Shown here: positions 50,668 to 52,898 of the stretch, one piece after another
Position numbering within the stretch: the first letter of the stretch is position 1
Layout: every line of letters starts with the position of its first letter
Origin: Thermococcus sp.
GTDB lineage: Archaea; Methanobacteriota_B; Thermococci; Thermococcales; Thermococcaceae
Reading direction: 5' to 3'
NCBI RefSeq assembly: GCF_017656495.1
Contig: NZ_JACDNS010000003.1
Span: forward strand, 62,001 to 126,000
DNA: 64,000 bases
Notes under the pieces: model-generated
The model's input: only the letters and a program-made list of their open reading frames with translations
The model's database searches: none
Told to the model about the DNA's origin: nothing
Translations under genes and position numbers: made by a program

Positions 50668-50811
50668 ATGGCGGTGTTGAAAGCAATAAAGGTCAAGGAC
50701 AGGGATGGTGAGATATTCTTCAGATGCCCAAGATGTGGGATGGTCTTTAAGAGGAGCAAAGATTATATCAAGCACATAAACAGAGCACACGGCCATCTCT
50801 TCAAGAAGTGA
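50668..50811 (+). CDS. 47-residue C2H2-type zinc-finger protein
   Basis: A very small protein: [18 protein letters not shown], then C-P-R-C, a 12-residue loop ([12 protein letters not shown]) and H-x4-H (HINRAH), ending HLFKK. The spacing CxxC...HxxxxH is that of a single classical zinc finger, and basic residues around it suggest nucleic-acid binding. ATG follows GGGGGTGGAGAG, a strong site, and the frame has the codon pattern of a real gene. Single-finger proteins of this size are known in Thermococcales; role unknown. Confidence 0.8.
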
Positions 50812-50914: not shown

Positions 50915-51925
50915 CTACTCCTTAAGATTTATCTCCTTTATCAGCTTTACTATAAAGGTCTTCCCAACTTTTTCCCTTGTCACAAGCTGCTTTTTCTCGA
51001 GCTCCTGGACTATTCTGCTCACAGTAGGTCTCGAATATCCAGTCAGCTCTGGCAAGTCCTCCTGCTTGACTTTTCCACCTTTCTCAAGTATTGCTTTAAC
51101 AACTATCCTTTCCTTTTCAGTTAGCACCTCAATTGGAACTCTGTTTGCTGCCCACTTCTTCTTTGCCCAGTAGAGAATTATTGGGACGGCAATTGCAAGA
51201 GATAGCACAGCACCTATAACAACCCACGGAATTGGGGAAGGTTCTTTTGGTGGTGTTATCGTAATTGTTACATTTTTGCCATACCAGAACACCGAATATC
51301 CCATCTCCTCAAGTTTTTTCTCAATTTCCGGTGATAGTCCAGCACCAATCATTATAACTTGCTTTGGATGGAGTTTTTTAAGTCCTTGGATAGCAAATTC
51401 TGACAAATCATTTTCTAGAGTTAAGAGAAGTGGGTAACCATAATTCATTGCAAATCTTGCTGCAGCTAACGCTGAACCATAATCCAGTGCACTCGCCAAA
51501 ACAACTGTATCTGCACCATCTGGGTAAAAATGAAGAGCCAGTTTTTCAGCAGTCTCTGTCCTGACATCTCCCCCTATTCTTGTAACGCTGAACCCAAGCG
51601 ACAAAAGCTCATCTTCAACTTCCTTACTCACTGCATTTGAGTTTCCAATGATCAAGACATTTTTCCATCCAAACTGCACATATGACTGCAGTTGAGCCTT
51701 TGTTTTATCATCAAGCGTTTTGGGATTTACAGGGAGAATTGGGATGTCAAGCTTTTTAGAATAGGGAAGAGCCACAATGTAGTCAATTAGGTCATCGTTC
51801 CTAACAATTATTAAATCGTATTGATGAGTGTTTTCCTGCGCTTTTACAGGAAGAAGAGTGAAGCTCACCAGAGACACTGCCAGCAATATGAGCAGTGAAA
51901 GTGAAATCCAGACTTTATTCTTCAA
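50915..51925 (-). CDS. membrane protein joining CWB2-like outer region to cytoplasmic winged helix
   Basis: A 336-residue protein. Signal peptide or anchor (KVWISLSLLILLAVSLVSFT), then about 200 outer residues with repeats resembling cell-wall-binding repeat 2: NVLIIGNSNAVSKEVEDEL, TVVLASALDYGSALAAARFA and QVIMIGAGLSPEIEKKLEEM. A second helix follows (WVVIGAVLSLAIAVPIILYW, about 228-247), and the last 75 residues are a winged helix (VLTEKERIVVKAILEKGGKV and LTGYSRPTVSRIVQELEK). This is a one-protein sensor that would bind DNA while held in the membrane. TTG 51925 has GGTGAT upstream; GTG 51934 is the alternative. Confidence 0.8.
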   Translation of the reverse strand: MKNKVWISLSLLILLAVSLVSFTLLPVKAQENTHQYDLIIVRNDDLIDYIVALPYSKKLDIPILPVNPKTLDDKTKAQLQSYVQFGWKNVLIIGNSNAVSKEVEDELLSLGFSVTRIGGDVRTETAEKLALHFYPDGADTVVLASALDYGSALAAARFAMNYGYPLLLTLENDLSEFAIQGLKKLHPKQVIMIGAGLSPEIEKKLEEMGYSVFWYGKNVTITITPPKEPSPIPWVVIGAVLSLAIAVPIILYWAKKKWAANRVPIEVLTEKERIVVKAILEKGGKVKQEDLPELTGYSRPTVSRIVQELEKKQLVTREKVGKTFIVKLIKEINLKE

Positions 51926-51971
51926 TCTTATCACCAGAATAAAGCTAAAAGAAAAGAGTTTAAAAGGTTTT

Positions 51972-52649
51972 TCAAAGCTCGAAGGTTTCTCCAGGCTTGA
52001 GGATTATGACTTCTGCTTTGTTGCCAACAAGCTTCTTAAATTCTTCTGGATCTTGTGCAATTGGTGGCCAAGTGTTGTAGTGCATTGGAATTACATATTT
52101 GGGCTTTAACAATTCGACAGCCTTTGCTGCTTCTTTTGGTCCCATTGTGAAGTGCCCTCCGATTGGGAGCAAAGCGACATCAATTCCATAAAGCTCGGCA
52201 AATAGCTCCATGTCCTTAAAGACGTAAGTATCTCCAGCATGGTAGATTTTTACTCCATCGATTTCTACAATATATCCACAAGCATTGCCTACCATGAAGC
52301 CCTCCTCTGCTCCGCTTGAATGCCAGGCTGGGACTTGGACGATCTTAACCCCATCTATCTCAGTTGGTCCATAGTTCATTCCAATTGTTGTTATGCCTTT
52401 ATTTTTCTCAACGAGGTAGTTTGCTATGTCATACATTGCCACAATTTTTGCTCCAGTTTTCTGTGCGATTTTCACAGCATCACCAACGTGGTCGCCATGC
52501 ATGTGGGTGACTAGGATCAAATCAACCTTGTCAAAGTCCTCGGGCTTTACAGCTGCAGTGGGATTTCCTGTTAAGAATGGATCAATGAGGATTTTCTTAC
52601 TTCCCTCGATCTCAAAGGCTGCATGTCCTAAAAACCTTATCTTCACCAT
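51972..52649 (-). CDS. UPF0173 metal-dependent hydrolase
   Basis: A 225-residue metallo-beta-lactamase-fold protein: VKIRFLGHAAFEIEG, VTHMHGDHVGD (the HxHxDH metal site), VPAWHSSGAEEG, YHAGDTYVF and VIPMHYNTWPPIAQD. These are the UPF0173 motifs. Substrate unknown. ATG 52649 has GGAGGTGATAAAG upstream. It is followed by the membrane-bound regulator on the same strand after 46 bases. Confidence 0.9.
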   Translation of the reverse strand: MVKIRFLGHAAFEIEGSKKILIDPFLTGNPTAAVKPEDFDKVDLILVTHMHGDHVGDAVKIAQKTGAKIVAMYDIANYLVEKNKGITTIGMNYGPTEIDGVKIVQVPAWHSSGAEEGFMVGNACGYIVEIDGVKIYHAGDTYVFKDMELFAELYGIDVALLPIGGHFTMGPKEAAKAVELLKPKYVIPMHYNTWPPIAQDPEEFKKLVGNKAEVIILKPGETFEL

Positions 52650-52898
52650 CTTTATCACCTCCAGAAGCCCCATCAGAAATAATAACAAAAGATTACTTAA
52701 ACGTTTCGAAAAGCCAGCTAAAAATTTTTAGGATGAGAGGTATGTGTGGTATTGTTTTGGGTTTGTTGATGTCTATCTAAATGAAAGATTTCCAAGTAAA
52801 ACTTTACATATCTTTGCACATTAGTGTTGTTTTTGCCTCATCAGAGAATATTCTCCTTTATTTGTGCTCAAAAACGTCTAACTGTCTGTTTTCGGAAA

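Follow-up and report, generated by a model that had tools for sequence, protein, structure and literature searches.

A predicted membrane-bound winged-helix regulator with a CWB2-type outer domain and its candidate regulon of secreted CWB2 proteins in Thermococcales

The regulator gene and its predicted domains

The window analysed in this study, a stretch of 64,000 nucleotides from a Thermococcus genome, carries on its minus strand a gene whose single-chain product combines a signal sequence, two repeats related to CWB2, a transmembrane helix, and a winged helix-turn-helix (Table 1); we refer to this protein as the regulator. Of the possible start codons, we take the TTG at 51923-51925 as the real one, because the ATG codons of the orthologues, which directly follow a GGTGAT Shine-Dalgarno sequence, align at this position. 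The original prediction for this locus had placed the gene at 50915-51925, which coincides exactly with the start chosen by the orthologue alignment. The BRE/TATA-like element of the regulator is kept in most of the non-Pyrococcus-like genera that were compared. A small convergent open reading frame with a single C2H2-type zinc-finger-like motif is located on the plus strand at 50668-50811, and an antisense open reading frame recurs at this position next to the regulator in several genera.

Table 1. Coordinates of the regulator gene, its parts and neighbour, and the AAC arrays of the secreted genes
Feature	Position	Strand	Basis or remark
Regulator coding sequence	50915..51925	minus	336 aa from TTG 51925; open reading frame reaches GTG 51934, 339 aa
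Shine-Dalgarno-like GGTGAT	51930..51935	minus	Sequence; kept in orthologues
Signal sequence, basic start then hydrophobic	51839..51925	minus	Hydropathy >1.5, residues 4-33
CWB2 repeat 1, predicted outside, ORF residues 41-136	51527..51814	minus	Pfam, AlphaFold model, Foldseek
CWB2 repeat 2, predicted outside, ORF residues 143-218	51281..51508	minus	Pfam, AlphaFold model
Transmembrane helix, ORF residues 235-257, then KKKW on the predicted cytoplasmic side	51164..51232	minus	Hydropathy, positive-inside bias, model
Predicted cytoplasmic winged helix-turn-helix, ORF residues 273-331	50942..51118	minus	DUF7343, MarR_2, model
Putative DNA-recognition helix SRPTVSR, ORF residues 302-314	50993..51031	minus	Class-wide alignment, model
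BRE/TATA-like promoter of the regulator, TTTGAAAAACCTTTTAAAC	51958..51976	minus	Overlaps the stop codon of the UPF0173 gene upstream
UPF0173-like metallo-beta-lactamase-fold hydrolase gene, upstream	51972..52688	minus	Neighbour only; linkage not kept in Pyrococcus-like genomes
Promoter stretch with the AAC array, secreted gene L002	G000:C1:268724-268846		
Promoter stretch with the AAC array, secreted gene L004	G000:C7:85566-85688		
Promoter stretch with the AAC array, secreted gene L038	G000:C4:41497-41619	minus	

Pfam assigns CWB2 (PF04122) to two stretches of the regulator with an E-value of 5.5e-14 and 52.9 bits, the curated cut-off being 24.9, and a phmmer search against the PDB retrieves the C. 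difficile proteins Cwp8 (1.3e-16) and Cwp6 (6e-16). The AlphaFold model of the mature protein, built with 34 orthologues, consists of the outer domain, a long helix, and then a typical winged helix; its mean pLDDT is 86.9, with values above 90 across most of the outer domain, and its pTM of 0.61 means that the relative placement of the outer and inner parts is not fixed by the model. When this model was submitted to Foldseek, the best 11 PDB matches were all C. difficile CWB2 proteins (SlpA, Cwp6, and Cwp8, with E-values from 1.7e-9 to 2e-7), and MarR-type winged helices, including DNA complexes, ranked next. These results bear out the relationship to CWB2 that had been proposed for the outer repeats, and the fold prediction suggested as a check of that proposal returns the CWB2 fold.

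According to both Pfam and the model, the ectodomain comprises two CWB2 repeats, one fewer than the three of the C. difficile anchoring module. It has been reported that cell-wall anchoring in C. difficile needs all three repeats (PMC4973711), so that a C. difficile-like mode of wall-polymer binding is not to be assumed for the regulator. At the place of the PILL-type motif, both repeats have an invariant proline followed by hydrophobic residues (PILP and PLLL in this protein), and repeat 1 departs from the motif at the fourth position in many sequences. Both the proline and further Asp, Tyr, Pro, and Arg positions in the repeats are invariant in a class-wide alignment of 22 sequences.

The regulator has two hydrophobic stretches, namely the signal sequence and residues 232-258, and hydropathy peaks at 2.47 in the transmembrane helix. 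Hydropathy and helix prediction identified the transmembrane region in all 46 orthologues examined; Lys and Arg are richer on its C-terminal than on its N-terminal flank in 43 of them, and the mean net charge is +3.1 on the C-terminal flank and -0.2 on the other. On the basis of this positive-inside bias, the winged helix is predicted to lie inside, so that the single transmembrane helix and cytoplasmic winged helix of the original prediction are upheld as a predicted topology. The winged helix itself matches DUF7343 (4e-11, 43 bits, cut-off 27.6) and MarR_2 (1e-7, 32.5 bits, cut-off 27) in Pfam. Across the class, the putative recognition helix and the wing belong to the best-conserved parts of the regulator, and the Ser-Arg-Pro that opens this helix is invariant in the 22 aligned sequences. 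Taking sequence and model together, the regulator very probably consists of a signal sequence, two exported CWB2 repeats, one membrane helix, and a cytoplasmic MarR-like winged helix.

Two further proteins of the same genome (L003:781-1710 and L005:856-1689) have a signal sequence, other outer domains, a transmembrane helix, and a related winged helix. They are examples of the DUF7343 (PF24034) archaeal membrane-linked winged-helix proteins, which share the layout of the regulator, and no CWB2 match was found in the outer domains of these two. Since the same scaffold is joined to different outer domains, the lineage appears to use exchangeable sensors. The L003 type is absent from Pyrococcus-like genomes and from one Thermococcus subclade.

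Distribution and gene neighbourhood

We identified a match to the regulator in 80 of 94 Thermococcales genomes, and most of the 94 have a full-length orthologue. Of 21 genomes from the same phylum but outside this order, 18 yielded a full-length match and another two a partial one, and a full-length regulator is also encoded in four of six Undinarchaeota genomes, where the four sequences constitute one clade with 47-51% identity between genera. As judged from these matches, the regulator is near-universal in Thermococcales, conserved in the sister orders, and present in Undinarchaeota; the search for similar CWB2 and winged-helix fusions, which had been suggested as a check, finds them in these groups. 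The presence of full-length orthologues in most Thermococcales and in other families of the phylum means that the architecture is not due to chance. No fusion of CWB2 with a winged helix was found in 295 Halobacteriota genomes, in which the matches span either the winged helix only or CWB2 only. For bacterial fusions the search was one contig scan, whose patterns came from the part of the protein around the winged helix and from the linker that precedes it. A secreted CWB2 protein resembling those of Thermococcales (L182:2443-3618) is encoded by an Undinarchaeota genome in which no full-length match to the regulator was found.

In most Thermococcus-like genera the regulator gene trails the gene of the UPF0173 hydrolase, yet it has a BRE/TATA-like element of its own, and in Pyrococcus-like genomes it sits between the genes for S6e and an EamA transporter. 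The UPF0173 operon was considered as a functional link and rejected, given that the pair is absent in Pyrococcus-like genomes and that UPF0173 stays where the regulator has been lost. In eight genomes with a readable locus of this kind, UPF0173 is in place and the regulator gene is absent, without any trace detected by tblastn. A replacement cassette at the empty locus was also rejected: the genes found there, identified by eye, look like ordinary neighbours (HAD phosphatase, ferritin-like, and ribonucleotide reductase), which points to simple loss. In one genome where the regulator is missing (G030), a dTDP-sugar, polysaccharide-type gene cluster adjoins UPF0173 (L236). In the orders related to Thermococcales (L090-L107), elongation factor 1-beta is encoded next downstream on the same strand in at least 13 of 18 loci, as assessed by eye and by pattern.

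A different neighbourhood was identified in Undinarchaeota: in each of the four genomes that encode the full-length protein (L163, L179, L180, and L181), the regulator gene is part of a surface-glycan gene cluster, with a GT4 glycosyltransferase gene on one side and a DUF354 gene on the other. A PF00953 sugar-phosphate transferase comes next in the cluster, together with a varying set that includes an NAD epimerase, a family-2 glycosyltransferase, DUF2304, and a PF03706 membrane protein; this annotation comes from Pfam on one genome and two genes of another. Because these genomes belong to one lineage, the cluster counts as one conserved association. It is the best clue that the regulator may belong to surface-glycan biology. 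The original prediction had guessed at an S-layer glycan as the ligand; what stands of this guess is a surface glycan as a candidate ligand only, favoured indirectly by the Undinarchaeota neighbourhood.

Secreted CWB2 proteins, their promoters and co-loss with the regulator

This genome also encodes three secreted proteins (L002 on contig C1, L004 on C7, and L038 on C4), in which a signal sequence is followed by two CWB2-like repeats and then by a helical second half. In a profile-profile comparison, the N-terminal half of these secreted proteins matches the regulator ectodomain with a probability of 95.9 and an E-value of 5.5e-9. The model of L002 matches CWB2 structures, and PF04122 is clearly above the cut-off only in L002, with L004 and L038 just below it. 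The secreted proteins and the regulator have the same homologous two-repeat CWB2 ectodomain; unlike the regulator, the secreted ones continue into a helical C-terminal half, in which neither a transmembrane helix nor a winged helix was seen.

When six genomes of the genus were compared, the sequences upstream of the three secreted genes had a block in common, GATTTCRTGAAAAAAGCTTAAATA, which contains a BRE/TATA-like element and the near-palindrome TTTCRTGAAA. Allowing up to three mismatches, this block has exactly three sites in the 2.05-Mb genome, one before each secreted gene, and the reversed pattern, used as a control in the same genome, has none. Further upstream lies YTTAAACNNNRATAAACGNTYNNRAACNNTNKTTAAC, an array of four AAC sites at a 10-bp period, which was matched 19 times across seven genomes of the genus (three each in six, and one in the seventh, which is 75% complete). 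Eighteen of the 19 matches fall in the sequences that had been retrieved from upstream of the three secreted families, the remaining one falls just upstream of the family member on its contig, and a control pattern gave no match in the seven genomes. It is important to consider that both patterns were derived from these promoters and therefore match there by construction; the informative part is that no matches occur elsewhere.

The distance between the two elements is also conserved. The array is located exactly 98 bp upstream of the proximal block in 31 of 38 upstream regions from five genera, which are not independent because the spacing is partly inherited, and such an array does not occur at any of the 128,000 strand positions of the 64-kb window. 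In two further regions (G047 and G048) the proximal block has diverged, and all or some of the array is present. A third conserved block, TAAACAAA, was found in an ungapped alignment of 21 sequences 42 bp past the fourth AAC site, a distance equal to four helical turns at 10.5 bp each. Only two or three AAC repeats, at a 10-11-bp period, make up the array in Pyrococcus-like genomes and one Thermococcus subclade; the patterns for this reduced form were written after inspecting the sequences, and their background in the window is 0.008-0.03 per kb. The AAC repeat of the reduced form had no match in G006 and G018. The recognition helix hardly changes where the array is reduced or unmatched.

The regulator's own promoter was searched for the AAC array and none was found, so autoregulation through the array was rejected. 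SurR and EarA were evaluated as possible readers of the array and were also rejected, the former because its motif, GTTn3AAC (PMC12162507), is missing from two of the three promoters, and the latter because its motif, A(C/G)(C/G)TACA(T/C) (PMC10665913), differs. No Rfam match to a known RNA was found in the upstream regions.

The regulator and the secreted genes tend to be present or absent together. Among the 94 Thermococcales genomes, 76 have both, 12 have neither, four have only the regulator, and two have only secreted genes (Fisher p 3e-10, ancestry ignored). In a single-gene tree (IOR alpha, 70 genomes) with mixed supports, eight of the ten branches on which loss of the regulator is inferred also lose all secreted genes; two of these eight coincidences (G046 and G051) rest on incomplete genomes. 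When losses were placed at random 20,000 times, weighted by branch length, the maximum was six coincidences and eight were never reached. The L003-type regulator served as a control: its absence is clade-wide, and inside the clade the co-loss persists (12, 0, 4, 12; p 7e-5, ancestry ignored). The discordant genomes are G077 (96% complete) and G083 (82%), which have secreted genes with intact arrays and no detectable regulator; G024, G063, and G070, which keep the regulator and have no secreted genes detected; and G062, likewise without detected secreted genes, which has a regulator fragment only. The secreted CWB2 paralogues, their unique shared promoter array, and their co-loss with the regulator had been missed by the original prediction.

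Interpretation and alternatives

Our best overall reading, with a probability of roughly 0.55, is that this protein is a one-component, single-pass transmembrane transcription regulator that controls a small regulon of its own, made up of CWB2 surface proteins. The signal sequence would export the two CWB2 repeats, the helix would cross the membrane, and the winged helix would stay in the cytoplasm, where it would bind the AAC sites, spaced by one turn, upstream of the promoters of the secreted genes; the scheme would apply to an activator or a repressor alike. The co-loss and the unique shared promoter elements suggest that the regulator may control the secreted CWB2 genes by binding the array, a proposal to which we give an even chance. 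With all AAC sites facing the same side of the DNA helix, several of the winged helices held at the membrane could bind next to one another, and, as an argument of fit, such sites suit winged helices that are held in the plane of the membrane. The idea of a kinase-free reporter from the surface to DNA, put forward in the original prediction, gains support at the level of sequence, and its function is a predicted one: the regulator has a predicted DNA-binding domain, at least one transmembrane region, and a predicted cytoplasmic location for that domain, which corresponds to the definition of transmembrane transcription regulators (PMC10269533).

The regulator may respond to the condition of the surface layer, sensed through either a surface glycan or the secreted CWB2 proteins, a suggestion that we make tentatively and at somewhat under even odds. 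It has been reported that the CWB2 repeats of C. difficile interlock as a trimer (PMC8881574). A chain with two repeats could need partners, and we speculate that partner assembly would therefore be a natural switch. A surface-occupancy feedback, in which the repeats of the regulator join the glycan or the secreted CWB2 proteins and thereby cluster or separate the winged helices, which would sit next to each other on one face of the array at its fixed 98 bp from the promoter and set the output of surface proteins, can be imagined and is on balance unlikely; if it were true, the assembly of the layer would be measured and corrected without a kinase.

The main competing explanation retains the CWB2 sensor but has the regulator act on other genes, with another factor reading the AAC array; the co-loss would then follow from a surface ligand shared by the regulator and the secreted proteins. 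The regulator promoter without an array agrees with this explanation, as do the arrays kept by G077 with no detectable regulator and the three genomes that keep an intact regulator without secreted CWB2 genes, and the Undinarchaeota glycan cluster could itself be the target. Against it, the two candidate readers do not fit the promoters (SurR motif missing from two of three, EarA motif different), and a factor dedicated to the regulon should vanish alongside it, which is what the regulator gene does. We consider this explanation possible but rather doubtful. It would also be conceivable that the CWB2 repeats do no more than keep the regulator attached to the surface layer or membrane, with the input arriving via the membrane or the juxtamembrane region. 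In C. difficile, CWB2 serves for anchoring (PMC4973711), and the transmembrane properties have been proposed as the cue in some regulators of this type (PMC10269533). However, the ectodomain has many class-wide invariant residues, including the C. difficile-type P-hydrophobic motif positions, and both the glycan-gene linkage and the co-loss with the secreted proteins speak for a function of the outer domain, so that pure anchoring is improbable.

Winged helices can bind proteins. This one, whose DNA binding is predicted, might therefore be off transcription altogether, as a cytoplasmic anchor or protein-interaction module, such as a tether between chromosome and membrane. Such a role is very improbable considering that the putative recognition helix and the wing rank with the best-conserved parts across the class, that the structures matched by the model include DNA-binding MarR proteins, some of them in complex with DNA, and that in L003 and L005 the same pair of winged helix and transmembrane helix is coupled to other outer domains.

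According to a census, transmembrane transcription regulators occur widely, with an enrichment in Thermococci (PMC10269533). Like ToxR, CadC, and their relatives as described there, the regulator would be a single chain with a single-pass helix, a cytoplasmic DNA-binding domain, and no kinase; it differs from them in the order of its parts, which is outer domain, membrane, winged helix, and in its CWB2 outer domain. We found no mention of CWB2 in the available portion of the main text of that census, and no description of CWB2 regulators or of an AAC promoter array in the open-access literature. The remark in the original prediction that no characterised case is known in archaea calls for a correction: ArnR and ArnR1 of Sulfolobus acidocaldarius are membrane-bound one-component regulators of surface-structure genes (PMC6396743). 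Given that archaeal membrane-bound transcription factors have already been characterised, only the CWB2 sensor is unusual. In ArnR and ArnR1 the helix-turn-helix is N-terminal, the proteins are phosphorylated by ArnC and ArnS (PMC13286277), and no CWB2 domain is described in the portions available, whereas the winged helix of the regulator is C-terminal. The C. difficile proteins SlpA, Cwp6, Cwp8, Cwp2, and Cwp66 (PMC4973711, PMC8881574) have the same CWB2 fold as the regulator and comparable sequence motifs; they carry three repeats arranged as a pseudo-threefold tile that binds the anionic polymer PSII, in contrast to the two repeats, transmembrane helix, and winged helix found here.

An archaeal gene regulator conserved in several orders would have a bacterial wall-binding fold as its outer part. 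How archaea without a peptidoglycan wall monitor and adjust their surface is largely unknown, and our study supplies a conserved predicted sensor, the regulon proposed for it, and a precisely defined element in the promoters. As Thermococcales have established genetics, the proposed link from surface to DNA is directly testable. In the secretome of T. barophilus (PMC10667668), TERMP_01791 is a secreted 48.5-kDa protein of S-layer-like arrays, whose size would suit a candidate secreted CWB2 protein.
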